This document shows positions 17,819 through 54,831 of a DNA stretch of 64,000 bases, piece after piece (within the stretch, counting starts at the first letter, position 1; each line of letters opens with the position of its first letter). The notes beneath the pieces were generated by a model that worked only from the letters and a program-made list of their open reading frames with translations, was not told the DNA's origin and searched no databases. Both the position numbers and the translations under genes were made by a program. Source of the DNA: Rhodoferax aquaticus (GTDB taxonomy: Bacteria; Pseudomonadota; Gammaproteobacteria; Burkholderiales; Burkholderiaceae_C); assembly GCF_006974105.1 (NCBI RefSeq), contig NZ_CP036282.1:3720001-3784000 (forward strand), given 5' to 3'.

Positions 17819-17847
17819 AGCAATACCACTAACGAAGCTAAAGTAAC

Positions 17848-19941: not shown

Positions 19942-20477
19942 TTAGAACCTTCTTTCAGCTGCAGTGTCGCAATACGTTCCGTCCACTCTCCAACAGCATC
20001 TTGCACAATCTCTCTAAGCGTTACTTCTGTTTCATTGATCTTCGTCACCTTACCAAAGTTTTGGCCTAGGTAATTGCCAACCTTCACTTGGTATAGAAGT
20101 TGATCTACCTTCACTAAAGCAATCGGTTGACTAGCTCTAAAGATACTCCCCACCAAACTCATGCTATCCAGAGGAAATCCCTCCAGTGGCTCTTTACGCC
20201 TTGCCAATTCGGGAGCAACTAGGGCCCCATTCGCTGCTACTTGAGCGGATTCTTTTTTCAGTGCTTGCGTTAACTTTTGGCTGCTGAATGGCTCTGTGGA
20301 TGCTGAGTTTGTATAGGCCTCTGGCACAAATTGCTTGGGGGCAGGTAGCGGTTTGACTTTCGGTCTCGCCTGGTTTTTTTCGTCAACCATCCATTGGCGT
20401 ATTTCATCTTCTTGCGCGGCCCCACATGCGGATAGCAACAAGATGAGAAGTAAAACAAAAGATAAACGCACCATCAC
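19938..20477 (-). CDS. pilP: Type IV pilus lipoprotein PilP
   Basis: 179 residues. A lipobox (LLLILLLSACGAAQ) gives an inner-membrane-anchored lipoprotein. The C-terminal beta-domain (SLVGSIFRASQPIALVKVDQ, YQVKVGNYLGQNFGKVTKIN) is the part that contacts PilQ. It links the PilMNO inner-membrane complex to the secretin. Stop overlaps the pilQ start by ATGA; start overlaps the pilO stop by 4 bp. Confidence 0.95.
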   Translation of the reverse strand: MMVRLSFVLLLILLLSACGAAQEDEIRQWMVDEKNQARPKVKPLPAPKQFVPEAYTNSASTEPFSSQKLTQALKKESAQVAANGALVAPELARRKEPLEGFPLDSMSLVGSIFRASQPIALVKVDQLLYQVKVGNYLGQNFGKVTKINETEVTLREIVQDAVGEWTERIATLQLKEGSK

Positions 20478-34522: not shown

Positions 34523-34542
34523 AAGTAGGAGCGCCATTGTGC

Positions 34543-34647
34543 CTTGTCAATGACAAGACATCTGCTAAAGCGTTCGCAAAAGGCCATCCGGTCCAAGCAA
34601 CGCGGACAAGAACTTATGATCCCGAACTTGCAACTGGAGCGTTAAAC
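34543..34647 (+). promoter_or_regulatory. Structured-looking metK leader
   Basis: The 5' region holds a tight hairpin (CTTGTC-AAT-GACAAG, 34543-34557). Then comes a block from 34570 that is repeated exactly before the second metK (36923-37000). Inside it GGTCC and GGAC (34600-34617) can pair, nested within GTTC/GAAC. I do not recognise a known SAM or SAH riboswitch class. A regulatory RNA is possible but unproven. A GGAGC ribosome binding site (34637-34641) precedes the ATG. Confidence 0.35.
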
Positions 34648-36922: not shown

Positions 36923-38186
36923 GCGTTCGCAAAAGGCCATCCGGTCCAAGCAACGCGGACAAGAACTTATGATCCCGAACTTGCAACTGGAGCGTTAAAC
37001 ATGGCCAATGACTTCCTCTTCACGTCTGAATCCGTCTCAGAAGGTCACCCCGACAAAGTCGCTGACCAAATCTCGGATGCGATTTTGGACGCCATCTTCA
37101 AACAAGACCCCAAATCCCGCGTCGCCGCAGAAACGCTGTGCAATACCGGTTTGGTCGTGCTGGCTGGTGAGATCACCACCAACGCCCATGTGGATTACAT
37201 CCAAGTGGCGCGCGACACCATCAAGCGCATTGGCTATGACAACACCGAATACGGCATTGACTACAAAGGCTGCGCTGTTTTGGTGGCCTATGACAAGCAG
37301 TCCAACGATATCGCCCAAGGCGTAGACCATGCGTCGGACGATCACCTCAACACCGGTGCCGGCGACCAAGGTTTGATGTTTGGTTATGCCTGCAATGAGA
37401 CCCCTGAGCTCATGCCTGCCCCCATTTACTACGCCCATCGCTTGGTAGAGCGCCAGGCCCAGCTGCGCAAAGACGGCCGTCTGCCCTTCTTGCGCCCTGA
37501 CGCCAAGAGCCAGGTAACCATGCGCTATGTGGATGGCAAGCCCCACAGCATTGATACGGTGGTGCTGTCTAGCCAGCACAGCCCAGAGATGAGCAATGGC
37601 ACCACCATGAAGCAAGAGTTCATCGATGCCGTCATTGAAGAGATCATCAAGCCGGTGTTGCCTGCGGAGTGGCTCAAAGACACGCGTTATTTGGTGAACC
37701 CCACAGGCCGCTTTGTGGTCGGTGGACCCCAAGGCGACTGTGGTTTGACGGGTCGCAAAATCATTGTGGATACCTATGGTGGTGCTTGCCCCCACGGTGG
37801 TGGCGCGTTCTCTGGCAAAGACCCAACCAAGGTGGACCGTTCTGCCGCTTACGCTGCGCGCTATGTGGCCAAGAACATTGTGGCAGCCGGTTTGGCCAAG
37901 CAATGCCAAATCCAAGTGGCCTACGCCATTGGTGTGGCTAAGCCCATGAATGTGACCGTGTACACCGAAGGCACTGGTGTGATCTCGGATGAGAAAATCG
38001 CCGCACTGGTCAACGAGCACTTCGACTTGCGCCCTAAGGGCATCATCCAGATGCTGGACTTGCTGCGCCCCATCTACGAGAAGACTGCGGCTTATGGCCA
38101 CTTCGGCCGTGAAGAGCCTGAGTTCTCTTGGGAACGCACCGACAAGGCCCAAGTGCTGCGCGCCGCCGCTGGCTTGAATTAAACCA
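36923..38186 (+). repeat. Direct repeat copy B (leader + metK)
   Basis: Second copy of the 1264-bp block; see copy A for the two mismatches. It begins 14 bp after the adenosine kinase stop and ends 7 bp before the GT9 gene. Confidence 0.95.
37001..38182 (+). CDS. metK: S-adenosylmethionine synthetase (copy 2)
   Basis: 393 residues, same protein sequence as copy 1; the two nucleotide differences (Tyr TAT/TAC and Phe TTT/TTC) are silent. It carries the same 78-bp leader, but its upstream DNA is the adenosine kinase gene rather than the copy-1 promoter region, so it probably depends on read-through or a leader-internal promoter. The GT9 gene starts 10 bp later. A longer frame back to 36656 reads through the kinase gene and is not real. 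Confidence 0.96.
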
Positions 38187-38192
38187 TCGCCT

Positions 38193-39437
38193 ATGAACAT
38201 CCAGACACAACGTTTCATTGACCGCTGGGCCGGCCAGCTACTCTGCGGCGCGGTGTCTGCATGGGTGCGCTTGACCCAACTCTTTGGGGGGCCAGCGCGC
38301 ATGCCTGCTTCCCCAAAAAACATTTTGGTGATTTTGTTGTCGGAAATGGGCAGCATCGTTCTCGCGGGCCCCATGTTTGCAGCGCTGCGCCGCACGTATC
38401 CCGGTGCTGCGATCCACATTCTGCAACTCAAAAAGAACCAAGAAGTCTCCAAGCTCCTCTCGCTGACCGAGACAGACTACATGCATACGCTGGACGACAG
38501 TTCCGGCGGGTCTCTGGTGGCAGACATTCTCAAAGTGAGTCTGAGGATGCGCAACCTCGGGCTGGACGCGGTCATTGATTGCGAGCTTTTTTCACGCGTA
38601 AGCGCTTTGTTGTCTTTCAGCACCGGGGCCCCGGTGCGCGTGGGCTTTACACCCCACACGCAAGAAGGCCTGTACCGTGGCAGCTTCATCAACCATAGTA
38701 TCCCGTACAACCCTTACCAGCACATCAGCAAACAGTTCTTGTCCTTGGTCGACGCCCTAAGCGCACCAGACAGCATGCCCCGCAACCGGGCGGCTGCCAT
38801 ACGTGACACCCCCGAAGACACAGAGCTTTCGGTTAAGTTCACCGACACAGAGCTTGAGACATACCGCAGCAAACTTGAAAGCGACCACCGCGTCACGCAA
38901 GATCGGCGCTTGGTGCTGGTCTATGCCGGTGGCGGCATCTTGCCCGAGCGGGCTTGGCCTGCCAGCCACTATGCACGGGTGGTGCAAGGACTATGTGCTG
39001 CAGGCTATGCCGTAGGGCTGATCGGCCTTAAAGATGACGCCATCTTGGCCCATGAGCTGCAAGCCCAAGTGGGGCACGAGGCCTGCCTGAACCTGACGGG
39101 CTATACCAAAAGCATCCGCGAGTTGCTGATGTTGATGCATGCCAGCGCCTTGCTCATCACCAATGACGGCGGCCCCAGCCACTTCGCCACGGTGACACCT
39201 ATTCAGACCATGGTGTTTTTTGGGCCCGAGACCGGCAAGCTCTATGGTCCCTTGGGGCGTCGCACCATCATTTTGGAAAGCGGCATTGCCTGCTCTCCTT
39301 GCCTGACAGCCTACAACCACAGGCTTACTTTTTGCGACGGCGATAATCAATGCCTTAAACGCATTGCGCCCGACCCCGTTTTGGCCGACGCACTGCAATT
39401 TTTGAACAGTGCTCCGACCCAACCCTCTCTCGCATGA
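38193..39437 (+). CDS. Glycosyltransferase family 9 (heptosyltransferase-like)
   Basis: 414 residues. GT9/ADP-heptose:LPS heptosyltransferase fold: ILVILLSEMGSIVLAGPMFA in the N-terminal Rossmann half, YAGGGILPERAWPASHYARV and LLITNDGGPSHFATVTPIQT in the donor-binding half. A Cys-rich tail (CSPCLTAYNHRLTFC) resembles the family's conserved C-terminal cysteines. It probably adds a sugar to LPS or another surface glycan. It leads a unit with gtrA-like (4-bp overlap) and arnT-like genes. Confidence 0.88.
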   Translation: MNIQTQRFIDRWAGQLLCGAVSAWVRLTQLFGGPARMPASPKNILVILLSEMGSIVLAGPMFAALRRTYPGAAIHILQLKKNQEVSKLLSLTETDYMHTLDDSSGGSLVADILKVSLRMRNLGLDAVIDCELFSRVSALLSFSTGAPVRVGFTPHTQEGLYRGSFINHSIPYNPYQHISKQFLSLVDALSAPDSMPRNRAAAIRDTPEDTELSVKFTDTELETYRSKLESDHRVTQDRRLVLVYAGGGILPERAWPASHYARVVQGLCAAGYAVGLIGLKDDAILAHELQAQVGHEACLNLTGYTKSIRELLMLMHASALLITNDGGPSHFATVTPIQTMVFFGPETGKLYGPLGRRTIILESGIACSPCLTAYNHRLTFCDGDNQCLKRIAPDPVLADALQFLNSAPTQPSLA

Positions 39438-43301: not shown

Positions 43302-44011
43302 AGCCGCTTGCGAGAGCGTCGAAGCGCCAAAACCTTGCGCACCAACATCCCCTGCAAAACCAGCCACAGCCAGGGGTCCAAGACGGCATCCCACACATTG
43401 CCCGTGGGCAAGCGCAGTGCCACAAACACCAGCACTACGATTGGCAACAAAGCCCAGATCCACCGCGTCTGCGCCGTGCCCCAAAACAACCATGGCACAC
43501 AGGCCACGGCCGCCACCACCCAAACCGCGGCTGCACTAAAGCCAAAGGCATACCACTCGCCAGGCAACAAGGCAAAGGTGTCCAACAACAAAACCCACCC
43601 TAGCAGCACCCCGCACACAGGCAGGAACCACAGACCTCTGCGAGCAACCGACAGGGGGCGGGCGCAGCCCCAGACACACGCGGCAGACAACAAGGCAGTG
43701 CCCACACTCGGTGCCAGAAACGCCAGCCCCAACCAATGTACCGGCCCCCAAGGGCCTGGCACCCAGGCCCACCCAAACGCGAGCACGGCGGCCACTCGCC
43801 GTGCTAGCAAACCGTGCGCATGCAGGCCAACACGTGCTGCGAAACTTTGCACCAAGGCCCCTAACCCCCAAGCCAAGACCAAGCCCCATGCCACATACAG
43901 CCAAGCACTTGCCACCTGAGGAAGCGGCAGAACCAAGGTGTCGGTGGCACCCAGAGAAGACGGTGCCTCACGCAGGTGTTGCAGCAAAGCCGGTACGCTA
44001 AAGCCGCTCAT
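43298..44011 (-). CDS. Uncharacterised integral membrane protein
   Basis: 237 residues, very rich in Trp, Ala, Leu and Val, with about seven predicted membrane segments (for example WLYVAWGLVLAWGLGALVQS, WFLPVCGVLLGWVLLLDTFA, WIWALLPIVVLVFVALRLPT) and a basic C-terminus (RKVLALRRSRKRL) likely in the cytoplasm. I recognise no family. It is translationally coupled on both sides (ATGA overlaps with the sialidase-like gene upstream and the CoA transferase gene downstream), so it should function with the sialidase-like protein. Confidence 0.8.
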   Translation of the reverse strand: MSGFSVPALLQHLREAPSSLGATDTLVLPLPQVASAWLYVAWGLVLAWGLGALVQSFAARVGLHAHGLLARRVAAVLAFGWAWVPGPWGPVHWLGLAFLAPSVGTALLSAACVWGCARPLSVARRGLWFLPVCGVLLGWVLLLDTFALLPGEWYAFGFSAAAVWVVAAVACVPWLFWGTAQTRWIWALLPIVVLVFVALRLPTGNVWDAVLDPWLWLVLQGMLVRKVLALRRSRKRL

Positions 44012-45183
44012 GGGGTCACCGCCTTGTCAGCGCCGTTTGTTGAAAACCGCTGCCACGAAATAGTCTTGCGGTCTACGGTGTAGCTCACCCACAAGTTGCC
44101 CTGCTCCCATGCCAAGGCGGGATAAGAGAATTCGTCATCCGGTGCTCCCTCAGCCATACGGTTCAAAAGTCTCCAGTCTTGACCGTTTCCGGACACGCTC
44201 AAGTCCATCACCGCCCTGGAGCCCGGCGAACTGTTGTGTACCAGCACCCCAAACCCCGGCGCCAAGCCCAGCCCAGCAACCGAGGAGTCGGGATTGATCA
44301 AACTCAGATCGGGCAGGTCTTGCCAACTGCGCCCCCCGTCCTGCGTGCGGGCGGCCAGCACACGCCCCTGGGCGCGCTCGTCCCGCATCAGCGCCGTCCA
44401 CTCACGCGGACCTTGGGCTAGCAGTGTGGGCTGCAAGGCGTAGCCACGCCCGCTGATGCGGCTGATACCCATAAGCCCACCGTAGCGATCAAAGCGCAAA
44501 GCCGCCGGGTGCTTGATGCCCAGTTCAAAATGCACTGGTAAAACCATCCCCCCATCAGCCAAGGGCAAGGGGGAACTGCGCACCAAATAGCTGGTATTCC
44601 AGAGCCACGACACGGGCAGTGCAGGCATAGGCTCAAACTCTACGGCCCCAGCGGCGCGGCTGGCTTGCGTCTGGCGCAAATGCACGATGCGGCTGGCAGC
44701 CCAGCCCCCCGCGCCCGTCGCCACCACAAAGAGGTGAATGCGCGCATCTGCGTCTAGCCACGCCACCGGATTGCCCAAACGGCGCACCCCATAGCCCAGT
44801 TGCGCTCCCAAGACATGGCGGTTCACGGCCCACTGCGGCGGACTCCAGGCTTGGTCCGCACGGCGCCACTCAGACGTGGCAATTTGCACATTGGGGCCGC
44901 TCTCGCGCTCACCAGAAAACCAGAAGATGCGCAAGCGGGCTGCGGAGTCTGCTGGCATCACCAACAGCGTGCTGGCATGGGCAGCTGCAGATTGCGCTGG
45001 CATGGGCACCGGCCCTTGGTCTACTTTGGTAAGTACCATGGGTTGTGCGACGCCTGTGGTATCTGGCCACACGGTGGCCGCTTCTGCGGGGGACACAGGG
45101 CGTTGCGCGAGGTCCCACGCCAGCAAACCACTGACAGCCAAGGCGGCGATCAACAAGCGCCAATGAAATTTCAGAACATCCAT
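44008..45183 (-). CDS. Exo-alpha-sialidase-like (BNR repeat) protein
   Basis: 391 residues. An N-terminal signal anchor (WRLLIAALAVSGLLAWDLA) places the domain outside the inner membrane. A beta-propeller is suggested by Asp-box motifs such as ARTQDGGRSWQDL and the degenerate SVSGNGQDWRLLN, and repeated W-x-S strands. Overall layout fits the BNR_2/neuraminidase-like family. I cannot confirm the catalytic Arg triad, so glycosidase activity is not assured. First gene of the operon with the membrane protein and CoA transferase. Confidence 0.7.
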   Translation of the reverse strand: MDVLKFHWRLLIAALAVSGLLAWDLAQRPVSPAEAATVWPDTTGVAQPMVLTKVDQGPVPMPAQSAAAHASTLLVMPADSAARLRIFWFSGERESGPNVQIATSEWRRADQAWSPPQWAVNRHVLGAQLGYGVRRLGNPVAWLDADARIHLFVVATGAGGWAASRIVHLRQTQASRAAGAVEFEPMPALPVSWLWNTSYLVRSSPLPLADGGMVLPVHFELGIKHPAALRFDRYGGLMGISRISGRGYALQPTLLAQGPREWTALMRDERAQGRVLAARTQDGGRSWQDLPDLSLINPDSSVAGLGLAPGFGVLVHNSSPGSRAVMDLSVSGNGQDWRLLNRMAEGAPDDEFSYPALAWEQGNLWVSYTVDRKTISWQRFSTNGADKAVTP

Positions 45184-45287: not shown

Positions 45288-46340
45288 ATGAGCACCTCCT
45301 CCATCCTCCGCCTGGCCCCGCTGGGCTTTCCGTGGCAAACGCTAGACCCGTTTTTGTTTTGCGTGCACCACCACGATGCCTACCCCGCAGGCAATGCGCA
45401 GCTAGGCCCCCAAGCCAGTTTGGCAGGACGCAAGCTAGGGCAAGACTTTGCCGGCCAAGACGGGTGGAGCATGTACCACGGGGACACGGTGCCCGGGTTT
45501 CCCTCCCACCCGCACAGGGGCTTTGAGACGGTCACCATTGCGCGCCAGGGCTTGATCGACCACTCCGACTCTTTGGGGGCCACGGCCCGCTTTGGCGGTG
45601 GTGACGTGCAGTGGCTCACAGCAGGCCAGGGCATCGTGCACTGCGAAATGTTTCCCCTGGTCCACCCACACGCACCCAATCCCACAGAGCTGTTTCAAAT
45701 CTGGCTCAACCTGCCTGCCAAAAACAAAATGGCCAAGCCCCACTTCACCATGTTTTGGCACGAAGACATTCCACGCACGGTTCACGTCGACGCAAAAGAT
45801 GGGCACACCGAGGTCGTGTGCATCGCCGGATCCTTGTCCGGCATGCAGCCTTTGCCGCCCCCGCCTGACTCATGGGCCAGTGCACCACACAGCGACCTTG
45901 CCATATGGACGCTCACAATGTCGGCCGGCGCGCGTTGGACGCTACCTGCTGCGCAGCACCCCCAAACCCGGCGCATGCTGTATTTTTTCAAGGGCCCACA
46001 GCTGCAGGTGGCAGGCCAGGCGGTCAACAGCCATAGCGCCATCGAGTTGCAAGCAGACCACGCCGTGGAGTTGATCAACGGAAACGCAGAGTCAGAGTGC
46101 TTGGTGCTGCAGGGCAGACCTATCGGCGAGCCTGTGGCGCAGTATGGCCCGTTTGTGATGAACACCGCCGCCGAAATTCAGCAAGCGTTTGCCGACTACC
46201 AGCGTACCGAATTTGGTGGATGGCCTTGGGGTGCGAGTGACCCCGTGCATGCACGCGATCGGGGCCGTTTTGCCCAGCATGCCGACGGCACATTGGAGGA
46301 ACGTAGCACCGAGTCCAACCCGCTTGCGCCGACGTCTTAA
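45288..46340 (+). CDS. Pirin-family cupin protein
   Basis: 350 residues, two cupin domains. The N-terminal metal site reads FPSHPHRGFETVTI with GQGIVHCEMFP; FELFQIWLNLP-like text (ELFQIWLNLPAKNKMAKPHF) is the pirin signature. Bacterial pirins act as quercetinases or bind metabolic enzymes; the role here is not evident. It stands alone between the sialidase-like operon (divergent) and DUF1839 (convergent, stop codons overlapping by 4 bp). Confidence 0.92.
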   Translation: MSTSSILRLAPLGFPWQTLDPFLFCVHHHDAYPAGNAQLGPQASLAGRKLGQDFAGQDGWSMYHGDTVPGFPSHPHRGFETVTIARQGLIDHSDSLGATARFGGGDVQWLTAGQGIVHCEMFPLVHPHAPNPTELFQIWLNLPAKNKMAKPHFTMFWHEDIPRTVHVDAKDGHTEVVCIAGSLSGMQPLPPPPDSWASAPHSDLAIWTLTMSAGARWTLPAAQHPQTRRMLYFFKGPQLQVAGQAVNSHSAIELQADHAVELINGNAESECLVLQGRPIGEPVAQYGPFVMNTAAEIQQAFADYQRTEFGGWPWGASDPVHARDRGRFAQHADGTLEERSTESNPLAPTS

Positions 46341-47344
46341 GAGTTGAGCGGTGCAGACGGCGGTGGAAACGCTGCCCTGAGCGCTGCCATGGATTGGTCC
46401 CAAGCGGCCGCACTGTGTGCCAACTGCGCGACAGGATCAAACGCCTTTTTTGACACTACCGCGCGCGCGCCCTTCAAAATCAAAGTCTTGGCATCCATCG
46501 CCATGCCAGCCAACAAGGCGTGCACGGGCTGCGCTGCGGGTGGCAATTCCTCGTGCAACCATTCCAGCCAAGCCGCCTGCAACTCGCTGGCGGCACCCCA
46601 CTGGCGAATACCCGCAAACGCCCATGCGTGGTAGTTGTCCAGCCCCGATGCTTGAAGCTTGGGCAACTCTTGCGCAAACCGATGCGCAAACTGGATGACA
46701 GGATTCACCAGCGGGGCATAGGCCACGTGCTTGCCCATCAAGGCTTTGCTGGCTTGCTTGAGCGCACTGCCTTGCCAGACAGGGGGGTCATAAAAACTCA
46801 CCAACTCCGCAAACAAAGGCAGGCCCGACGCTGGCCACTGTGCGGGCAATAGGTGGTGATAGTCCTCCCCCTGCGCCACAAAATAACCCGCATTGTGGAA
46901 ATACCCTAGCTCTTGTGCCTCAGTGTCCACGGCGTTAATGGCAATTGTCGTTTTGCTGTGCTTATGGCGGTAGTCGGTGCCTTGGGTGTCCGGCAAGTAA
47001 TAGGCATCGACTTCCACACAGATCAAGCGGCCAGCGGACAAATGCTCCAGCGCATGCTCCAGCAAGGGCTTCCACACGGTGAGCTCATGCACTTTGATGC
47101 CGTACAAACTGCGCAGCTCATCGTGCGATGGTTTGAAAAACGTCCACTGGTCGCCTTCGAAATCCATTTGCGCCACAAAGGGCAGCATGGCCAAGGGCTC
47201 CAAGCCTTTGGCGTGCAAGATTTCTATCCAGAGGTCGATGTAACAGTTTTTTTCAGTCCAGAGCGCGTGGCTGGCATGCAAGGCGTGGCGCGGGTAGTGG
47301 GCCGCATCTAGCCCCTGGATGGCTTGGACCTTGGTGGGCATCAT
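46337..47344 (-). CDS. DUF1839-family protein
   Basis: 335 residues from ATG 47344. Conserved-looking blocks are HASHALWTEKNCYIDLWIEI, FVAQMDFEGDQWTFFKPSHD, LICVEVDAYYLPDTQGTDYR and YFHNAGYFVAQGEDYHHLLP. No membrane segment or signal peptide. Biochemical function is unknown. Its start overlaps the stop of the amino acid:carrier protein ligase gene by ATGA, so the two proteins are made together. The acyl-CoA dehydrogenase is in the same transcription unit. A role in handling the aminoacyl-carrier protein is an inference from this context. Confidence 0.85.
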   Translation of the reverse strand: MMPTKVQAIQGLDAAHYPRHALHASHALWTEKNCYIDLWIEILHAKGLEPLAMLPFVAQMDFEGDQWTFFKPSHDELRSLYGIKVHELTVWKPLLEHALEHLSAGRLICVEVDAYYLPDTQGTDYRHKHSKTTIAINAVDTEAQELGYFHNAGYFVAQGEDYHHLLPAQWPASGLPLFAELVSFYDPPVWQGSALKQASKALMGKHVAYAPLVNPVIQFAHRFAQELPKLQASGLDNYHAWAFAGIRQWGAASELQAAWLEWLHEELPPAAQPVHALLAGMAMDAKTLILKGARAVVSKKAFDPVAQLAHSAAAWDQSMAALRAAFPPPSAPLNS

Positions 47345-48258
47345 GGCCACAGCAAGGCGCGGGTGGCCGCAGGCCACAGGGTGGTGTCCAGACCATGCGT
47401 TTTGAGCAGCGCCAAGGTCACGCGCTCCAAGCCGAACCCGAGACAGGCGGTGTGTGCCAGCCGATCATCAGCATCTTGAATGCCAAACTTGGAACTGAAA
47501 TGCTCTTGGTGCCAATTGAACGAACAAATGGCGGTAGGGTCGGTGCTCGATATCACAGGCACCTTGAGTTCAAACTTGAGTTTTTGGTCGCGCTGGTTGG
47601 CTGCCAGCATTTTGCCCACGCGGCCGAAAAACGGGTCGTTAGCGACATCACTCTCTACAGGCAGTCCAAGGTCAAGCAACAAGGTGCGCGCACGCTCCAG
47701 CCACTGGTCGCGCCATGCCACAACGACGTCGGATGGGCCGACCCGAATGAACTCGCGCATGCGAAACGACTGAAAACGGGTGGGCTCATCGGAAGGCTCG
47801 TGCCGAAAAATCCAGTTGAGCGTGGTCACCAAACGCCCGTTGGGCGAGAGCTTTCCGCTAAACAAGGGGTACACGGGGTAGCAAGCCGCGGGGGTCATCA
47901 TCACGTCGGTAATGTCGAGTGCGGCTTCCCATCGCTCGCCATTGCTGGCCTGGTCTGCCATCTCACGGGCCTTGGCGTCACTGCCAAAAAAGCTGTGCAC
48001 TGACCCAATCAAATGCGGAAAGTTTCCGAGGTAGCCCATCTTTTCAATCAACGCCCGTGGCACCACAGGGGGGAAGGTGAGCTCCTCTGCCTTGTCATCC
48101 GCGGCAACACGTGAGACCAAGGCATTGAAGCGCTGCAAAATGTCTTCAAACGCGGGGCCAAAGCCATTGACACCCCGCACGCCTGAGGGCAACAGAAAGC
48201 CTTGCGCCTCCAGGGCCGCTTTGAATGCACGGGTTTCTTCGCTGGTGATCTGGGTCAT
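47341..48258 (-). CDS. Amino acid:[carrier protein] ligase (SerRS-like)
   Basis: 305 residues, a truncated class II aminoacyl-tRNA synthetase core without a tRNA-binding arm. Motif 2 is FQSFRMREFIRVG and motif 3 is ACLGFGLERVTLALL. Likely zinc ligands are C126 (ACYPVYP), E169 (FRMRE) and C272 (HTACLGFG), as in atypical SerRS and the carrier-protein ligases. Characterised relatives activate glycine or alanine and load it on the phosphopantetheine of a small carrier protein; which amino acid is used here is not readable. The partner carrier is encoded divergently at 49608. Confidence 0.9.
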   Translation of the reverse strand: MTQITSEETRAFKAALEAQGFLLPSGVRGVNGFGPAFEDILQRFNALVSRVAADDKAEELTFPPVVPRALIEKMGYLGNFPHLIGSVHSFFGSDAKAREMADQASNGERWEAALDITDVMMTPAACYPVYPLFSGKLSPNGRLVTTLNWIFRHEPSDEPTRFQSFRMREFIRVGPSDVVVAWRDQWLERARTLLLDLGLPVESDVANDPFFGRVGKMLAANQRDQKLKFELKVPVISSTDPTAICSFNWHQEHFSSKFGIQDADDRLAHTACLGFGLERVTLALLKTHGLDTTLWPAATRALLWP

Positions 48259-48301
48259 AGCTTCGCTCGCTTGGCTCGTTGAGACAGTAGGGGCAATGCG
48301 G

Positions 48302-49477
48302 TCATTGGTCTTTGTAGACCAACAGCATCGAGGCGCTCTTGGCGGCTATTCGTTCATTGGACACCATGAGTGCCCCCGAGAGTGAATCGCGCAAGGCCCG
48401 GCTCACACTCAAGGGACCTTGGTTGTTAAAACCGGGGATTCCCAAGATGAGCAAGGCGTCTTGAATGATGGCGGGGGCCGCTTGTGAAGCGGCCGTCTTC
48501 AAGCTATTGAACTGCAAGGCCCAGCCCATTTCTTGCAAGGTATTGGTATCCGACCCTTGTTCCACCAACGCATCAAATTCGTCCGCCACACCTTGCCAAT
48601 GGCGCCGCATGGCTTGCACTTTGACCATGAGCTCCGCCAAGCGCGTCGCAGCCGGTGGCACCTGGCCCGGGTTCTTGCGTGCTTGGTTGCGCACCAAGGT
48701 AGCGGCTTTGTCATAGGCCGAGTACGCCAAGCCCCACCACAAAGCGGACCACAAGGTATGCGAGTAAGGCACCATGCTTTGCGATGCGATCTCTGAGTAC
48801 GGAGTCGGAAAAACTTGTTCTATGCCTCCTTGGCTGCGCAAACTAAAGCCCGGACTGCAGGTTCCGCGCATGCCCATGGTGTCCCACACGCCGTTGTGTG
48901 TGAGCTGTGCTTGGTGCTTGTCCACCAAGACCAGCACCTGGTCGCTAGCCTGTGCATCGCTGGCGCGGCGTGCAGTTACCAAAATGGCGTCGGCATAGGC
49001 ACAGTACGAGCCGGTCGTTGCTTCCTTGTTAAGTACAAATTGATCGCCCTCGCGCTCCACCGCACAGATGCTAGAACGCGTGTCTCCGAACGTGCCCACT
49101 TCAGACGTCATAGAACCCAAAAGCCACTGCTTGTCCGCCATATCTCGCAAGTACTGGGTGAAGAACGCGCTGCCCTGTGCGTTGCGGGTGAGGCAGGCCA
49201 GCTGGCTGTAGTGCATGGCCAAGACCATGGCACTGGAGCCGCACCGTTGTGCAATCAGCGCAACGAGCTCGCACTGACCCCGCATGGTCAGACCCTTGCC
49301 ACCCATTGCTACAGACACGGGTGCATTCAATAGCTTTTCGGACTGGAATGCGGCCAAAGATTCGCGCGGAAAGCGTGCCTGTTGGTCCACATCATGGGCG
49401 TGCTGTGCCGCTATCTGGGGGCTTTGTAGCTGTTTGACCCAGGCCCAAGAAGGACTGGTGGTAGAGGCTGTTGTCAC
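48302..49477 (-). CDS. Acyl-CoA dehydrogenase-like flavoprotein
   Basis: 391 residues from GTG 49477; a longer frame to 49786 runs antisense to the carrier gene and is discarded. Acyl-CoA dehydrogenase fold: MRGQCELVALIAQRCGSSAM, GSMTSEVGTFGDTRSSICAV, and the C-terminal helical domain (MGWALQFNSLKTAASQAAPA, LRDSLSGALMVSNERIAAKS). I see no clear catalytic Glu, but cannot place it surely. Its position beside the ligase and carrier parallels PltE-type dehydrogenases that oxidise a prolyl group while it is bound to a carrier protein. First gene of the leftward unit. Confidence 0.85.
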   Translation of the reverse strand: MTTASTTSPSWAWVKQLQSPQIAAQHAHDVDQQARFPRESLAAFQSEKLLNAPVSVAMGGKGLTMRGQCELVALIAQRCGSSAMVLAMHYSQLACLTRNAQGSAFFTQYLRDMADKQWLLGSMTSEVGTFGDTRSSICAVEREGDQFVLNKEATTGSYCAYADAILVTARRASDAQASDQVLVLVDKHQAQLTHNGVWDTMGMRGTCSPGFSLRSQGGIEQVFPTPYSEIASQSMVPYSHTLWSALWWGLAYSAYDKAATLVRNQARKNPGQVPPAATRLAELMVKVQAMRRHWQGVADEFDALVEQGSDTNTLQEMGWALQFNSLKTAASQAAPAIIQDALLILGIPGFNNQGPLSVSRALRDSLSGALMVSNERIAAKSASMLLVYKDQ

Positions 49478-49607
49478 GGTGAATCCCTGATAGATCGCTG
49501 CGGCGCGCCGCCTATGGTTGTAACCAATTGTATTATTATGCGCAGCTTGCTGTCGCATGCCACCATGGTGCTTTTGCCCTCTCTCCCGATTTGAACTTTT
49601 GCTGACT

Positions 49608-49853
49608 ATGAACGACCTTGAATCCCGCATCCGCACCGTCTTGGCAGCCCATGGACGTCTGTCCCAAGACGCACAGACCTTGGCACGGGACGCCGACTTG
49701 CAGCAGGCAGGCATGACCTCACACGCCAGCGTCAACGTGATGCTGGGCTTGGAAGGCGAGTTTGACGTCGAATTTCCAGACCACATGCTGTCGCGCAGCG
49801 TGTTCTCCAGCGTCGCATCTATTTCGGCCGCGCTCCAGCAGCTGATCGCCTAG
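49608..49853 (+). CDS. Stand-alone phosphopantetheine carrier protein
   Basis: 81 residues, four-helix acyl-carrier type. The phosphopantetheine Ser lies in QQAGMTSHASVNVMLGLEGE, where TS replaces the usual DS; EGEFDVEFPDHML is helix III-like. It is predicted to receive the amino acid from the SerRS-like ligase. ATG 49608 is chosen because the preceding 17 codons are not carrier-like; no good ribosome binding site is visible. It leads the rightward unit, 9 bp before the GH2 gene and 130 bp from the divergent dehydrogenase gene. Confidence 0.88.
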   Translation: MNDLESRIRTVLAAHGRLSQDAQTLARDADLQQAGMTSHASVNVMLGLEGEFDVEFPDHMLSRSVFSSVASISAALQQLIA

Positions 49854-49862
49854 GCGCGGCGC

Positions 49863-52427
49863 ATGCAGGGCTGGCCTAACGCGCAAGGGAAGAAAAGCTC
49901 TCGCCTTCCCTTAAGCACCTTGCCCCAGGCATGGGCCATCTGCCAGCAGGCCGTCGGCCAAACAGCGGATGACGTACCGCATGGCAGTGCTTGGCACACC
50001 ATTGACCACGCCACCACGGTAGCCCACGCCTTGCAAATGGCGGGGCAATGGACGCTGGATGGCCCCGCGTTGGACTTGGATGCCAGCATCTGGTGGTTTC
50101 AGGTTCGCTTTGATGCACCGGCGTGCCCTGCCAACACCTTGCGGCAGCTGCACTTTGGCGGTTTGGCAACCCTCTGCCGCGTATGGCTCAACGATGTAGA
50201 AATTTTGGCCAGCGACAACATGTTTCTCGCCCACCAGGTGGACGTGACCCACCTGTTGGTGCCGCAGGCCAATGTGTTGCGCTTACGGTTTGACACGCTC
50301 ACACCCCATTTACAAACCAAGCGACCCCGCCCCCGTTGGCGCACACCGATGGTGGCGCACCAGCAGCTGCGTTGGCTGCGCACCAGCTTGCTGGGTCGCA
50401 CACCAGGGTGGACGCCCCCCGCCGCACCGGTTGGCCCATGGCGGCCTATTTGGCTAGAAGACATGGGTCCGTCTGCACACTTGGTGCGGTCTACGCTGGC
50501 CGCACATCTGGACGGTGCGCATGGCACTCTGGCGATTGATTGCTGGTTTAGCGACACCTTGCCCGCGCAGACCAGCGTCACTGCCCACATCCACGGGCCT
50601 AGCGGCAGCACCACGGTCGCTTTACAAGCCGCAGCAGATGGGCATTACCAGGTCCAGTGCCACATCCCCGGTGTTGCACCCTGGTGGCCCCATACCCACG
50701 GTGAGCCCGCGCTCTACACGGTCCGCGTCACTGTGGCAGATGCTACAGGCGCAGCGATGGCCTACGAACTCGGGAAAACCGGGTTTCGGACCATCACTAA
50801 AGCCCACGGCGACGACAGATTTGCCCTTTGCGTGAATGGAACCCCGGTCTTTTGCCGCGGCGCTTGCTGGATGCCTTTGGATGTGGTGAGCCTCGCGGCC
50901 AGCGAGGACGCCTACCGCCAAGCCTTGCTGCAAGTCAAAGCCGCGGGTATGAACATGCTGCGGCTCGCAGGTTCCACCATGTACGAAACACCGACCTTCT
51001 TCGCGCTATGTGACGCCTTGGGCATCATGGTCTGGCAAGACCTGATGTTCTCCAACATGGACTACCCCGCTGAGGATGCTGCATTTGCGCACAGCGTGTG
51101 CACCGAGGTGCACCAGCAGCTCACTGCCTTGCAGGCCCACCCCAGCGTCGCTGTAGTGTGCGGCAATTCCGAAGTTGAACAACAAGCGGCCATGTGGGGC
51201 GCAGACAAAAGCCAATGGGCTCCCCCGCTGTTTCACCACTCGCTGCGCGAGATCGCGCAAAGCCTCTTGCCCCATACCGTGTATTGGCCGTCCAGTGCCC
51301 ACGGAGGCGCGTTTCCCCACCAAGTCAAAAGAGGCACCACCTCCTACTACGGCGTAGGCGCGTACAAACGGCCGTTGGACGACGCACTCACCAGCCAAGT
51401 CGCGTTTGCCACCGAGTGCCTGGCCTTTGCCAATATTCCGCCCAGCAGCACCTTGCGCCGAGCACCGTGCGGTGAAGCGCCGCAAGTCCACGCGCCGGCA
51501 TGGAAGGCCCGGGTTTACCGTGACCAGTCGGTAGGCTGGGACTTTGACGATGTGCGTGACTACTACCTCGATCAACTCCTAGGGCTGCGCCCTGAAGCCC
51601 TGCGTGCAGTGGACCCCGCACGCTATTTGACTTTGGGGCGCGCTGTAGCCGCCGAGGTGATGGGCCGCACCATGGCAGCCTGGCGCACAGCACCGTCCGC
51701 CTGTGGCGGCGCGCTGGTGTGGTTTTTGCGCGACCTGTGGGCAAGCGCAGGCTGCGGGCTGGTGGACGACCAAGGCGTTCCCAAGTCGGTTTTTCATGCC
51801 TTGGCCAGGGTACAGCAGCCCCTCTTGGCTACCCTCGGTGCACAGGGTCTGAATGGCTTGGCTTTGCACCTCATCAATGAAACAAGCTCAGACCTTGAAA
51901 CCCAGGCTGAGCTGACCCTGTACCAGCACGGCGAGTTTCGCGTCGCACAGCATGTGCGCAAGCTCGCAGTGCCAGCGCGAAGCACACAGGAATGGGACGT
52001 CAGCGATTGGCTAGACAGCTTTGTGGACCTCGCCTACAGCCATCGCTTTGGCCCTGCCGCGTTTGACTTGGCCGTCGTCCAGTGGCGAGATGCCGCAGGA
52101 CACGTAATCGGCCAGGCTTTGCATTTTGAGCCCCAACAACTCATTGCATTCAATGGCAACCCGGGGCTTAGTGCCTGGGCCACGGCAGCCCCCGATGGCT
52201 GCATCGTGGTGCAACTCAGCACCCGCGCCGTGAGCTATGGCGTGCATTTTGAAAGTTATGGCTGGCAAGCCGACGACGAGTTTTTCCACATGCCACCGGG
52301 CTCGCAACGCAGTATTCGCTTCTCACCCACGCTGCCCGGCCACAGCCACTGGCATGCCAGCGCCATCGCACTCAATGGTCGGCAGTCTTGCCCCATTCCA
52401 CTGCAAACACCCTCCGTTGCCCCATGA
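49863..52427 (+). CDS. Glycoside hydrolase family 2, beta-mannosidase-like
   Basis: 854 residues. An N-terminal jelly-roll sugar-binding domain (TLRQLHFGGLATLCRVWLND), immunoglobulin-like domains, then the TIM barrel (VKAAGMNMLRLAGSTMYETP). The acid/base Glu is in VAVVCGNSEVEQQ and the nucleophile candidate in VAFATECLAFANIP, so activity seems retained. No signal peptide: it would act in the cytoplasm, unusual for a polysaccharide degrader and more in keeping with processing a pathway intermediate. Its stop overlaps the hydrolase start by ATGA. Confidence 0.88.
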   Translation: MQGWPNAQGKKSSRLPLSTLPQAWAICQQAVGQTADDVPHGSAWHTIDHATTVAHALQMAGQWTLDGPALDLDASIWWFQVRFDAPACPANTLRQLHFGGLATLCRVWLNDVEILASDNMFLAHQVDVTHLLVPQANVLRLRFDTLTPHLQTKRPRPRWRTPMVAHQQLRWLRTSLLGRTPGWTPPAAPVGPWRPIWLEDMGPSAHLVRSTLAAHLDGAHGTLAIDCWFSDTLPAQTSVTAHIHGPSGSTTVALQAAADGHYQVQCHIPGVAPWWPHTHGEPALYTVRVTVADATGAAMAYELGKTGFRTITKAHGDDRFALCVNGTPVFCRGACWMPLDVVSLAASEDAYRQALLQVKAAGMNMLRLAGSTMYETPTFFALCDALGIMVWQDLMFSNMDYPAEDAAFAHSVCTEVHQQLTALQAHPSVAVVCGNSEVEQQAAMWGADKSQWAPPLFHHSLREIAQSLLPHTVYWPSSAHGGAFPHQVKRGTTSYYGVGAYKRPLDDALTSQVAFATECLAFANIPPSSTLRRAPCGEAPQVHAPAWKARVYRDQSVGWDFDDVRDYYLDQLLGLRPEALRAVDPARYLTLGRAVAAEVMGRTMAAWRTAPSACGGALVWFLRDLWASAGCGLVDDQGVPKSVFHALARVQQPLLATLGAQGLNGLALHLINETSSDLETQAELTLYQHGEFRVAQHVRKLAVPARSTQEWDVSDWLDSFVDLAYSHRFGPAAFDLAVVQWRDAAGHVIGQALHFEPQQLIAFNGNPGLSAWATAAPDGCIVVQLSTRAVSYGVHFESYGWQADDEFFHMPPGSQRSIRFSPTLPGHSHWHASAIALNGRQSCPIPLQTPSVAP

Positions 52428-54334
52428 ATACCAGCGTCGACATCCCCTTGGGCGCGGTGCAGGCACCTCCGCAGTCGTTCTTCTTTGGCCCCGAGTCGCG
52501 GCCTTTGTTTGGCGTCCTACACCGCCCGACCGCCAACCTCACTGCACCCTTTGCGGTGCTCATGCTCAGCCCCTGGGGCGCAGAAGACCTCTCCGCCCAC
52601 CGGGCGTTGCGCGGCCTGGCCCAGTCCATCGCGCAGCAAAGCTACACCTGCATGCGTTTTGATTACGACGGATGCGGTGACTCCTACGAGCCCGCCCCCG
52701 ACGACAACCTGTGGCCCCTGTGGCAACAGGCTTGTATAGCGGCAATAGATACCCTCAAGCAACTCACCGGCTTAGAACACGTGGTTTTGGTGGGGATGCG
52801 CTTGGGCGCTTTGCTGGCCGCCGAGATTGCGGCGCAACGCGCAGACATTGCAGCCTTGGTGCTCATGGCCCCGGTACGCAGCGGCCAAGCCTACCTCAAA
52901 GAGCTGCGCATGCTGGGGGGTGCCATGGCGCAAGGCGAAGCGCAGCCAGCGCATGCCGTGTTCGCTGCAGGCTTTACGCTCAACCATGCCACCGCCCAGG
53001 CCATTCAGGCGGCCAAGCTACCCGACGTTCTCAAGACCCACGCCGTGGCCGTCGTAGACCGCGACGACATGGGCATTGGCAGGCGCTGGATTGACAGCCT
53101 CGCGGTCCAAGGTGTGCACACGGTGTACAGCGCAGAGCCCGGCTACCCCGACATGGTGCTCACTGCGCACAAGGCCAAACCGGCATTGCGCATGTTTGAC
53201 CAAGTCCTTGAGGCACTCAGAACCTTTTCTTGGCACCAGTTAGAGCCGCATGCGCTGCGCCCATCGCACGCAATCAAGCCAAGGCTACAAGCCCATGTGC
53301 GCTCCGACGGATACAACGTGCTTGAGAAAGTCCTACCGCCGTTTGGCCCCATGGGCATGGCGGCCTTGCGCATTGAGCCGGGGGAAGGGGTGTCGTATTC
53401 GGGGCGCGGCATCTTGATCTTGAACTCCAGCACCGAGCGGCGCATTGGTCCCAACCGCATGTGGGTCGGCTTTGCCAGAGCGCGCGCGGCCTTGGGTGAC
53501 ATCGTCATACGACTTGATATGCCAGGCATCGGCGAGAGCCAGCAAGACTACCCCTTGGGTACCAACTTGGTTTACCCCCCAGACGCCATCGAACACGTGG
53601 CGGCCTTTTTAAAAGCCCAGTTACATGAGCACCATTCACCGCGCTGGGCGGTGCTGGGCCTGTGCTCTGGCGCCTACCATAGCTACCGACTGGCACTGGC
53701 GCAGCGCGGCATCTACCACGTCTTCCCTATCAACGCATTTGGCTTCTTGCCCCAAGACGTGCAAGAGTCCGATGTATGGGCCCATGCCGCGCTGCAGTTT
53801 GCCGTGGCCCAAAACGCCAGCCGCAACCTCATCAAACCCGACCGATGGATCAAGCTCTTGCGCGGCCAAGTTAATTGGCGCGTCATTGCCCAATCGTTCT
53901 GGGGACGTGTGCGTGGGGAGACGCTAAAGAACCTCTTGAAGGCAGGCCGAGCACTCAAACTGATTGCCCCACCTGAGTTGGCGCGGGAGTTCCGCGTCCT
54001 CAACAAGCAAGGCTGCCGCGTTCACTTTGTGTTTGCGACGACGGACCCAGGCCCCGCCATGCTTCGCGAAGCCTTGGCCTATGACTCACCGACCTTGTTC
54101 AACAAGGGGCCGGTCACTGAAGACCAAATCGAAGGGGCCGACCACACCTTTGCTGGATTGGCGGGTCGCGCCCAGCTATTTACCCATCTCCACCGCCGCC
54201 TCGACAACTGGGTGCTGGCCCCTGTACAGCGCAGTCGCTTGCCGCAAATGGCCGACGAACCACCGTGGTACGAAGCACCCCCTAGTGCGCCCATGTCACT
54301 CTTTGGCACTGAGTTTTTACCCACCAACTTTTAA
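52424..54334 (+). CDS. Tandem alpha/beta-hydrolase protein
   Basis: 636 residues from ATG 52424, two hydrolase-like halves. In the first (about 1-280) the nucleophile elbow reads VVLVGMRLGALLAAE, with Arg where Ser is expected, as I recall for exosortase-A-associated hydrolase 2. In the second (about 290-620) it reads WAVLGLCSGAYHS, placing Cys at the nucleophile position; an Asp (FATTDPGP) and a His (EGADHTF) follow at plausible triad positions. So half 1 may be non-hydrolytic and half 2 a Cys acyltransferase or thioesterase. It is coupled to the GH2 gene. Confidence 0.85.
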   Translation: MNTSVDIPLGAVQAPPQSFFFGPESRPLFGVLHRPTANLTAPFAVLMLSPWGAEDLSAHRALRGLAQSIAQQSYTCMRFDYDGCGDSYEPAPDDNLWPLWQQACIAAIDTLKQLTGLEHVVLVGMRLGALLAAEIAAQRADIAALVLMAPVRSGQAYLKELRMLGGAMAQGEAQPAHAVFAAGFTLNHATAQAIQAAKLPDVLKTHAVAVVDRDDMGIGRRWIDSLAVQGVHTVYSAEPGYPDMVLTAHKAKPALRMFDQVLEALRTFSWHQLEPHALRPSHAIKPRLQAHVRSDGYNVLEKVLPPFGPMGMAALRIEPGEGVSYSGRGILILNSSTERRIGPNRMWVGFARARAALGDIVIRLDMPGIGESQQDYPLGTNLVYPPDAIEHVAAFLKAQLHEHHSPRWAVLGLCSGAYHSYRLALAQRGIYHVFPINAFGFLPQDVQESDVWAHAALQFAVAQNASRNLIKPDRWIKLLRGQVNWRVIAQSFWGRVRGETLKNLLKAGRALKLIAPPELAREFRVLNKQGCRVHFVFATTDPGPAMLREALAYDSPTLFNKGPVTEDQIEGADHTFAGLAGRAQLFTHLHRRLDNWVLAPVQRSRLPQMADEPPWYEAPPSAPMSLFGTEFLPTNF

Positions 54335-54339
54335 GCACC

Positions 54340-54831
54340 GTGAAACCATTCGCCTTGCCCTTCATCATCGGCGCTCTGTGCTCAGCGGCAGGGCTTTCTG
54401 TCTACTCGGCCTACCAACACGTCAGCCACCGACCCGCTCCGTCTGCACAAGCAGTCGCCATGCCGCTGGCCCCACTGGCCATCGACCCCACATGGGTCAA
54501 GTCCGGCGCGCCCAACTTCAAGTCGCTGGAGTTTGGTGCTTCCACGGACGCCAGCAGCTCTTCGGGTTTGTTTCAAGCCGATGGCGCTTCTTCGTTTGTG
54601 TGGCAGTACGGGCTGGATGAAGCCATTTACATTCTTGAAGGTGGCGTAGACATTGAGTACCTAGGCAAACGTTTCACCCTCAAAGTGGGGGACACCGCCT
54701 TCTTCTATGCCGGCACTTCGGCCACATGGAATGTGCACGCCGGGGGTGTCAAGAAAACTTGGACCATCTACAAACCCAGCAAGCTGGCCCGTTGGGCGGC
54801 CAAGCACCCGCAAGACAAGTCAGCCCCCTAA
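54340..54831 (+). CDS. Membrane-anchored cupin protein
   Basis: 163 residues. An N-terminal hydrophobic segment (FALPFIIGALCSAAGLSVYS) should anchor it with the domain in the periplasm. The cupin_3-type (ureidoglycine-hydrolase-like) fold shows FVWQYGLDEAIYILEGGVDI, FTLKVGDTAFFYAGTSATWN and VKKTWTIYKPSK. Metal ligands are incomplete compared with catalytic cupins, so it may bind a ligand instead. GTG/ATG choice: GTG at 54340, 5 bp after the hydrolase gene, gives the signal anchor. Last gene of the carrier-protein unit. Confidence 0.82.
   Translation: MKPFALPFIIGALCSAAGLSVYSAYQHVSHRPAPSAQAVAMPLAPLAIDPTWVKSGAPNFKSLEFGASTDASSSSGLFQADGASSFVWQYGLDEAIYILEGGVDIEYLGKRFTLKVGDTAFFYAGTSATWNVHAGGVKKTWTIYKPSKLARWAAKHPQDKSAP

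Follow-up and report, generated by a model that had tools for sequence, protein, structure and literature searches.

A conserved gene cluster of Rhodoferax aquaticus that may join carrier-bound amino acids to a sugar or small molecule

We analyzed a 64,000-nt stretch of the Rhodoferax aquaticus genome (contig NZ_CP036282.1, positions 3,720,001 to 3,784,000), referred to here as the window. Seven genes within it form two divergent units on either side of a short spacer (Table 1). In the leftward unit, the DUF1839 and ligase ORFs have a 4-bp ATGA overlap, and 43 bp separate the ligase from the flavoprotein gene. In the rightward unit, the carrier/GH2 gap is 9 bp, the GH2 and tandem hydrolase ORFs share an ATGA overlap, and the hydrolase/cupin gap is 5 bp. 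The coordinates bear out the layout given in an earlier, sequence-only reading of this DNA, i.e., two divergent units, a 130-bp spacer, and ATGA overlaps or gaps of <45 bp throughout. Six of the seven genes are a conserved set, the cupin gene being the exception. Among the flanking window ORFs scanned by family, only that at 38193-39437 encodes a glycosyltransferase (family 9).

Table 1. Genes and spacer of the cluster, in window coordinates
Feature	Position	Strand	Basis
DUF1839 gene (PF08893)	46337-47344	-	Pfam PF08893, 327 bits
Amino acid--[acyl-carrier-protein] ligase gene, truncated SerRS-like class II catalytic core	47341-48258	-	NF005479, 387.5 bits
Flavoprotein gene, acyl-CoA-dehydrogenase fold, GTG start	48302-49477	-	acyl-CoA dehydrogenase domains, E ~1e-6
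Divergent intergenic spacer, 130 bp	49478-49607	.	
Aminoacyl carrier protein gene, attachment Ser38 in GMTSH	49608-49853	+	NF005480, 94.5 bits
GH2 beta-mannosidase-like glycosidase gene	49863-52427	+	Pfam GH2
Tandem alpha/beta-hydrolase gene, two hydrolase halves	52424-54334	+	N half resembles exosortase hydrolase 2, C half hydrolase 1
Cupin_3 protein gene, hydrophobic N-terminus	54340-54831	+	Pfam Cupin_3

The ligase (305 aa) scores above the curated NF005479 cut-off of 357 bits. Its match to the 518-position SerRS model begins at position 205; the tRNA-binding domain is absent, and a partner carrier gene starts nearby (49608). Residues C126, E169 and C272 align with positions 131, 176 and 279 of the solved Bradyrhizobium ligase (3mey), which we take to be its published Zn ligands. 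These three residues, together with R152, E154 and R279, presumably of class II motifs 2 and 3, are identical in all 62 aligned ligases; the sequence-only reading had named both motifs and the three candidate ligands. The solved protein, B. japonicum Bll0957 (3mey/4h2w), belongs to the same family over the NCBIfam cut-off and has identical Zn and motif residues. A. tumefaciens Atu2573 is presumably another amino acid:[carrier protein] ligase, and we infer that Atu2574 is a DUF1839 protein. In a tree of the ligases, the solved protein is one of 11 rows in a clade with 100/100 support, none with a DUF1839 locus, and the window ligase lies outside this clade; ligases of DUF1839 loci do not group as a single clade (five changes, with a weak root fork). 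Beside the Zn-binding Cys, ligases of DUF1839 loci have A271 (44/47), G274 (47/47) and E278 (47/47), whereas the solved-ligase clade has G, A and D (10/10), in a comparison made without five non-DUF1839 loci (L009, L026, L032, L033 and L035), all from the same side of the tree as the window ligase. Because of these differences, the amino acid used by the window ligase may not be that of the solved-ligase clade.

The carrier also exceeds its curated cut-off (72 bits for NF005480). Ser38 is invariant in 38/38 carriers, and position 37 is Thr in 33 and Ser in 5. The TS in place of DS at the modification site, already noticed in the sequence-only reading, is therefore a family trait rather than a defect. 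Among 44 loci selected by similarity, a profile search (with a profile built from 14 genes found by ORF clustering) placed a PPTase gene in 34, and this gene adjoins the carrier in 33/33 loci that have both. These 44 loci are biased toward this type of cluster, since the ligase scan started from aligned close relatives; contig ends truncate several of them, and all were kept in the counts. The earlier proposal that an amino acid is activated onto the carrier is supported by the two family scores and by these PPTase genes. However, PPTase genes are rare in the DUF1839 loci of two broader genome samples, with one in the six order-sample loci other than the window and none in six phylum-sample loci, and there is none beside the window's carrier.

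Those two samples address whether the genes belong together. The order sample comprised 300 genomes and the phylum sample 299; they overlap, and both include the window's genome. For the phylum sample, 20 of 37 matching genomes were taken (15/21 over the ligase cut-off and 5/16 under it), with G000, G143 and G182 already included and G426, G513 and G572 left out. Co-occurrence is strict: DUF1839 is never found without the ligase (7/7 order-sample and 12/12 phylum-sample genomes), and the cluster-type GH2 occurs in the same seven order-sample genomes as DUF1839. In G182, a further DUF1839 gene lies on a contig that has no ligase match. Ligase, flavoprotein and carrier occur together in 8/8 over-cut-off order-sample genomes, including the window's, with a weak carrier match in one (G177, 36 bits). 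The five distant, under-cut-off phylum loci have none of the other cluster genes. Fisher p-values of 2e-13 and 3e-16 overstate independence, since the genomes are related. The co-occurrence of ligase, DUF1839 and GH2 led us to reject chance as the origin of this neighborhood.

The flavoprotein has the acyl-CoA dehydrogenase fold but not the catalytic Glu. The MCAD-type Glu position is Val or Ile in 40/40 sequences; the IVD-type position is Ser, Ala or Cys, and the next residue is His in 40/40. This invariant residue is His240 (H242 in alignment A4; also counted as 241). In the same kind of alignment, made with 10 of the 16 acyl-CoA dehydrogenase paralogs of the window's genome, 8/10 keep a Glu at one of the two positions, one (L086) has Asp, and another (L092) has neither. 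Profile matches include the nitrososynthase DnmZ (3mxl), 3m9v and 4kcf (both presumably the nitrososynthase KijD3) and DszC, beside many dehydrogenases. Fold scores (Z) do not separate dehydrogenases from oxygenases, with the oxygenases TdsC (39.3) and DszC (38.9) tying. Two enzymes of the same fold, CaeB1 and ColB1 (7xp7), act on a carrier-held amino acid, a cysteinyl group. The base proposed for CaeB1 is Glu372, and such a Glu is missing from the cluster flavoprotein at both positions, which weakens the dehydrogenase analogy. Of the earlier suggestion that the amino acid is oxidized on the carrier, the oxidation itself is still plausible, while the analogy behind it is weak.

DUF1839 gave nothing significant in sequence searches against PDB chains; only a fold search gave matches, and there the modeled fold corresponds over its full length to that of CcbD, CtaG and AziU. 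Cys33, His128, Lys130 and His149 (numbered from the ATG at 47341) are invariant in 38/38 proteins, position 131 is Thr in 37 and Ser in one, and Cys33 begins helix 33-44. The family has been classed as papain-like, with a swapped C(T/S)H triad, in a 2023 paper (PMC10318531). CcbD/LmbD of lincosamide biosynthesis (7yn2, 9dkr, 9dks) share ~10% identity with DUF1839, and CcbD, with Cys19 as its catalytic Cys, has a Cys-His-Glu triad rather than the swapped Cys-Thr/Ser-His arrangement described for DUF1839 there. CtaG of closthioamide biosynthesis (9quz and variants) and AziU3/U2 (8gs1, 7wuw) share 11-14% identity, and their donors and acceptors are different. BtrH of butirosin biosynthesis (PF14399), an acyl-carrier:aminoglycoside acyltransferase according to the same paper, is likewise papain-like. 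We set aside DUF1839 as a plain BtrH_N member: at E 0.01 its only Pfam match is DUF1839, and hhalign to seven BtrH_N proteins gave a collinear but weak alignment (probability 10.6, E 0.0029). CcbD joins carrier-bound proline to an amino sugar, and it and CtaG come from antibiotic pathways. By analogy with these enzymes, we propose that DUF1839 is an aminoacyl-carrier-dependent, amide-forming transferase. Because one of its enzymes is folded like antibiotic enzymes that join carrier-held amino acids to amines, the cluster probably decorates a surface sugar or small molecule.

In the GH2 protein, Glu437 and Glu518 are conserved in 32/32 sequences and align with Glu residues of beta-mannosidase 2vjx; we take these positions to be the acid/base and the nucleophile. 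Its N-terminus is not hydrophobic by a crude test, whose line of 2.0 would miss the cupin (1.98) too, and the enzyme is probably cytoplasmic. In the tandem hydrolase, the N half has GxRxG and no Ser nucleophile, and the C half has Cys414 and Asp573-His574, invariant in 24/24. The C and N halves match exosortase-A hydrolases 1 and 2 (TIGR03100 and TIGR03101) at 93.6 and 82.8 bits, below the cut-offs of 168.45 and 202.75, and here the two are fused in one protein; nothing in the window's genome exceeds the TIGR03100 cut-off. Exosortase-A loci likewise place the related hydrolases 1 and 2 beside a carrier and a ligase. At the preset threshold of E 1e-25, hydrolase-type matches occur in 44/300 order-sample genomes, most being single-half matches of 90-200 bits; a 340-bit line was chosen after seeing the scores, and in both the GH2 and the hydrolase search no more than 3-4 candidates per genome were scored. 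Near-full-length matches of 164-201 bits occur in three ligase-free genomes (G101, G056, G264). The hydrolase was not found in loci L047-L049 and L057, although in G143 and G309 a copy lies ~11 and ~21 kb away from the ligase, respectively, and in G182 on another contig. The hydrolase likely has a role of its own on groups bound to the carrier. The cupin, counted as a pathway member in the sequence-only reading, is not conserved, and we set it aside as a core part: relatives are absent from all 44 similarity-selected loci and present in 2 of 74 loci scanned, namely L050 (83 bits) and L067, where the gene immediately follows the ligase (45 bits). Neither locus has DUF1839, and the two make an optional cupin-ligase link conceivable.

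Several diverse loci adjoin polysaccharide genes (Wzc/Wzx/glycosyltransferase/Bac_transf). We claim no enrichment, since this context comes from only 30 ORFs, mostly picked by eye, of which four had no Pfam match and three were unrelated to glycans. In three Ramlibacter loci (L009, L026, L032), the ligase, flavoprotein, carrier and hydrolase are retained, DUF1839 and GH2 are absent, and the ligase adjoins genes for an NRPS (formyltransferase, A, luciferase-like monooxygenase, PCP) and a PKS, identified by Pfam in L026 and L032 and by sequence reading in L009; the module is therefore not tied to sugars. At L102 (genome G279), the hydrolase gene comes after two others, one for an enzyme that adenylates amino acids (TIGR01733, 346 bits; cut-off 317) and is unrelated to the window's ligase, and one for a same-family carrier (NF005480, 109.8 bits); genes for Wzc and GDP-mannose dehydratase are nearby. 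G279 has no ligase or DUF1839 match, and the 20 kb of sequence covered at L102 contain no cluster-type GH2 or flavoprotein.

We propose that the cluster encodes a carrier-protein-dependent aminoacylation pathway, with an amino sugar of a surface or exported polysaccharide precursor as the most probable acceptor, a reading to which we give an even chance. In line with its family, the ligase would activate a small amino acid, of the Gly or Ala class, as the aminoacyl-adenylate and load it onto the carrier phosphopantetheine. The flavoprotein would oxidize the carrier-bound amino acid; with the Glu missing, oxidation at N or at the C-alpha-N bond is more likely than a Glu-driven alpha,beta-desaturation. 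DUF1839, if it reacts as its modeled fold suggests, would take the aminoacyl group onto Cys33 and pass it to an amine, giving an amide, as CcbD does. From their gene neighbors, GH2 would act on a glycoside, and the Cys-type hydrolase may edit or transfer carrier-bound groups. The sugar acceptor already suggested in the sequence-only reading gains indirect support from the CcbD acceptor, from both catalytic Glu in GH2, and from the nearby polysaccharide genes. More tentatively, the route would be tRNA-free and would attach an oxidized amino acid to a polysaccharide amino sugar, running from ligase and carrier through a His-type, N- or C-alpha-oxidizing flavoprotein to a CcbD-like transferase whose triad is rearranged, in an exchangeable module where an NRPS-type adenylating enzyme can stand in for the ligase and the front end can supply NRPS/PKS lines; we regard this fuller version as possible, not favored.

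Other readings share parts of this evidence. The Ramlibacter loci, and the antibiotic pathways of CcbD and CtaG, point to a diffusible, nonribosomal small molecule, for which DUF1839 would condense the carrier-bound oxidized amino acid with a non-glycan amine, or other enzymes would take over, and GH2 would trim sugar off a glycosylated product. However, NRPS/PKS genes beside the ligase were recognized only in those three loci, in flanks scanned by family in part, polysaccharide genes adjoin several diverse loci, and clustering of flanking ORFs from 46 loci gave no transporter or other family in >6 loci, cluster genes and PPTase apart; we rate this product as rather unlikely. The sequence-only reading had instead let the Cys-type hydrolase half move the amino acid from carrier to acceptor, perhaps as an ester, which leaves DUF1839 another role. 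The invariant Cys414/Asp573/His574, the L102 arrangement and the exosortase-A loci are consistent with this. The transfer step nevertheless fits DUF1839 better, with its fold of known carrier-dependent amide-forming enzymes, and the hydrolase is both missing from some loci and common without the ligase, so that transfer by the hydrolase is unlikely.

The remaining alternatives concern the flavoprotein and the cluster as a whole. The flavoprotein could be an ordinary on-carrier alpha,beta-dehydrogenase (e.g., alanyl to dehydroalanyl) like CaeB1/ColB1 rather than an oxygenase, a single step that would be compatible with the other readings. This is a doubtful but live option: the 40/40 absence of Glu and the nitrososynthases and DszC among the profile matches argue against it, tied fold scores do not separate the groups, and the reaction is chemically impossible for glycine. 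GH2, hydrolase and dehydrogenase families have mostly catabolic roles elsewhere, which could suggest a catabolic or detoxifying operon with the ligase as an accidental neighbor. Against this stand the 8/8 association of ligase, flavoprotein and carrier and the linkage of DUF1839 and cluster-type GH2, and we consider it highly improbable.

The core idea of our preferred pathway is not new. In a 2010 note in proof, Iyer and Aravind predicted that this ligase neighborhood forms an amide between an amino acid and an amino sugar of the cell surface (PMC2922099). As in the window, that neighborhood has a ligase, a carrier, a redox enzyme, a conserved unknown protein and a glycosidase; the text of the note, a prediction only, mentions neither a tandem hydrolase nor a PPTase, assigns the unknown protein no fold and describes no NRPS/PKS variant. 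We file the cluster under carrier-dependent amide synthesis, as an uncharacterized variant. No experimental study of DUF1839 or of the cluster was found in the open-access literature, where most subscription papers are missing, and among the matches listed in an open-access search for amino-acid-substituted polysaccharides there were only glycoconjugate vaccine and immunology papers. With DUF1839 named as a CcbD-like transferase, the pathway can be tested directly in vitro, using four proteins of the cluster plus a PPTase. This naming also connects relatives of translation enzymes with amide formation beyond the ribosome, and points to uncommon flavoprotein reactions on amino acids held by a carrier, perhaps even to a novel way of decorating polysaccharides. 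The ligase genes are named in one regulator study (PMC10888616) and one transcriptome study; in the same table of the former, B. diazoefficiens bll0958, the next gene number after bll0957, is an acyl-CoA dehydrogenase.

The seven genes of the window's cluster lie where the sequence-only reading had placed them, with the overlaps it described and a divergent spacer of 130 bp. Two of the products pass curated NCBIfam cut-offs: the ligase (387.5 bits against 357 for amino acid--[acyl-carrier-protein] ligase) and the carrier (94.5 bits against 72 for the carrier of the same ligase system). DUF1839 matches PF08893 with 327 bits, and family searches assign the remaining genes to an acyl-CoA-dehydrogenase-like protein (the flavoprotein), a GH2 enzyme, a two-domain alpha/beta-hydrolase and a cupin. 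The ligase residues singled out in that reading align with those of the Bradyrhizobium ligase of known structure, and 62/62 ligases share them without variation. The Thr that it noted before the modified Ser of the carrier is present but is a family trait, with Thr in 33 and Ser in five of 38 carriers.

The pathway is real and conserved. A genome scan that used a ligase alignment as its query yielded 44 loci, selected by ligase similarity and with contig-cut loci counted. Family profiles found the flavoprotein in 40 of these 44 loci, the carrier in 38, DUF1839 in 37, a holo-ACP-synthase-type PPTase in 34, GH2 in 32 and the tandem hydrolase in 28. Two samples, comprising 300 genomes of the order and 299 of the phylum, were chosen independently of ligase similarity. 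In the order sample, the ligase exceeds its cut-off in 8/300 genomes and DUF1839 occurs in 7/300, all within those eight; in each of the seven, a DUF1839 copy adjoins the ligase, and one genome (G182) carries a second copy on a different contig. GH2 genes like that of the window (i.e., "cluster-type") occur in the same seven genomes, with one weak partial match besides. In the phylum sample, DUF1839 is found in 12/299 genomes, all within the 21 that have a ligase over the cut-off; 16 additional genomes have a distant ligase under it. Since the two samples share three DUF1839 genomes, the link between DUF1839 and the ligase is backed by 16 distinct genomes. The gene set is present also in loci that carry Myxococcota or Actinomycetota labels (L038, L041 and L046).

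The expectation that the genes would co-occur elsewhere, and not mainly without the ligase, is thus borne out for DUF1839 and GH2. For the tandem hydrolase it holds in part, because many weaker family relatives occur in genomes without the ligase: in the order sample, matches >340 bits (a line set after the results were known) are found in eight genomes, seven of them ligase-bearing, and weaker matches, chiefly single halves, in 36 further genomes. The cupin had been counted as part of the cluster, but it has no relative in the 44 similarity-selected loci and relatives in only 2/74 loci overall, neither of which has DUF1839; it is treated here as an occasional neighbor.

Fifteen over-cut-off loci were retrieved from the phylum sample. 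The six with DUF1839 all have the flavoprotein, carrier and GH2, and five have the hydrolase. Among the nine without DUF1839, the flavoprotein is found in all and the carrier in seven, with weak scores, while a profile search found no cluster-type GH2 or hydrolase at any of them. Because DUF1839-less loci keep the flavoprotein, and mostly the carrier, without cluster-type GH2 or hydrolase, the cluster is made up of two nested units: ligase, flavoprotein and carrier, and, added onto these, DUF1839 and GH2, with or without the hydrolase.

In a 63-ligase tree, the Bradyrhizobium enzyme of known structure belongs to a clade of 11 rows, none of them from a DUF1839 locus (support 100/100), and the window ligase falls in a nine-row set, eight rows of which have DUF1839 (97/90). 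The DUF1839 loci are not monophyletic, and five DUF1839-less loci lie on the window's side. The Agrobacterium ligase reportedly prefers Ala. Published ligases load Gly or Ala, according to a passage in PMC5370406; next to the Zn-binding Cys, DUF1839 loci have other residues than the clade of the solved enzyme, so the amino acid of the window ligase may be a different one. The Bradyrhizobium ligase gene, bll0957, is next in number to an acyl-CoA dehydrogenase gene, bll0958 (as named in an excerpt of PMC10888616), a pairing that resembles the ligase and flavoprotein unit of the DUF1839-less loci. L061–L069 are a second cluster type, with ligase and flavoprotein and without DUF1839 and GH2; some have neighbors that read as GNAT, a second carrier, AMP ligase, SDR and MetA/MetY-like enzymes. 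A distant ligase subfamily (L070–L073; 154–175 bits, below the cut-off) has no other cluster genes nearby. At L056, the cluster adjoins another synthetase-derived aminoacylating enzyme, EpmA.

The PPTase adjoins the carrier on the same strand in 33/33 similarity-selected loci that have both. It is found in 1/6 DUF1839 loci retrieved from the order sample and 0/6 from the phylum sample. There is none beside the window's carrier; two PF01648 matches lie elsewhere in that genome.

The N half of the tandem hydrolase is like exosortase-A hydrolase 2 and the C half like hydrolase 1, both under the family cut-offs. Arg occupies the nucleophile position of the N half in 23/24 sequences; in the C half, Cys414, Asp573 and His574 are present in 24/24. 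In genome G279, which has no ligase match, the hydrolase comes after an amino-acid adenylating enzyme and a carrier that belongs to the family of the cluster's carrier, with Wzc and GDP-mannose dehydratase genes near. In two further genomes, the hydrolase lies ~11 kb (G143) and ~21 kb (G309) from the ligase, beside flippase, export, Wzc or glycosyltransferase genes. These neighborhoods, of which G279 is a single case, point to a hydrolase that acts, within polysaccharide loci, on amino acids bound to a carrier, regardless of the ligase that loads them.

Both catalytic Glu residues of GH2 are kept in 32/32 sequences, all of which fail a crude screen for hydrophobicity of the N-terminus (0.65 for the window GH2; 1.98 for the cupin). 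The window GH2, whose closest relatives by sequence are beta-mannosidases, is therefore probably an active cytoplasmic glycosidase.

As context, with ORFs selected by eye, polysaccharide-type genes flank L038, L042, L049, L051, L055, L059 and L100–L102. They include glycosyltransferases, Wzz/Wzc, flippases, WecG, an initiating sugar transferase, sugar-nucleotide enzymes and a polysaccharide export protein. What counts against a purely glycan role is that NRPS/PKS genes are present, and DUF1839 and GH2 absent, in three Ramlibacter loci; their NRPS genes come with a formyltransferase as well as a luciferase-like monooxygenase domain that is embedded.

Coordinates of variant loci, cupin relatives and other genes
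Location	Coordinates	Feature
L026 (Ramlibacter)	10650-20882	ligase/flavoprotein/carrier/hydrolase unit adjoining NRPS and PKS genes
L032 (Ramlibacter)	10906-20881	same arrangement
L009 (Ramlibacter)	11201-18556	same arrangement
L102 (genome G279)	7014-10806	adenylating enzyme, carrier (NF005480, 109.8 bits), tandem hydrolase; polysaccharide region; no SerRS-like ligase match genome-wide
L050	476-1024	cupin relative
L067	10333-10929	cupin relative, directly after ligase
L056	4967-7788	EF-P-like gene (by reading), EpmA (TIGR00462, over cut-off), lysine-2,3-aminomutase-like gene; directly upstream of carrier
G513:C23	92354-93265	ligase match with one in-frame TAA; may be broken there
Window	44008-45183	BNR_2 (sialidase-like) protein, two genes from DUF1839
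Window	38193-39437	glycosyltransferase family 9
Window	34537-35829; 36923-38182	S-adenosylmethionine synthetase, twice (by sequence reading), flanking a PfkB-type kinase gene
Window	2892-3734	LuxR-type regulator (by sequence reading)
Window	4605-5198	LuxI-type synthase (by sequence reading)

A 2010 note in proof (PMC2922099) gave the ligase as neighbors a carrier and a redox enzyme, a conserved protein of unknown function, a glycosidase and genes of liposaccharide biosynthesis, and predicted an amide joining an amino acid to a cell-surface amino sugar. A passage in a 2022 review still called the role unknown (PMC9437257), and we found no experimental study of the pathway in the open-access literature. 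Novelty is moderate, since the idea was already in print. New beyond the 2010 prediction are the fold that DUF1839 shares with CcbD/CtaG, the counts of gene co-occurrence, the flavoprotein's missing Glu residues, the separate ligase clade, the PPTase, the tandem hydrolase and two variants, one NRPS/PKS-linked and one with an adenylating enzyme replacing the ligase. The mechanism is well anchored for the loading and transfer steps, an anchoring that stops short of the oxidation and the acceptor. The cupin relatives and weaker hydrolase matches bear on neither loading nor transfer.

The two S-adenosylmethionine synthetase copies in the window are 100% identical over 300 nt (34570-34869 and 36923-37222), and their ORF translations appear almost identical end to end.
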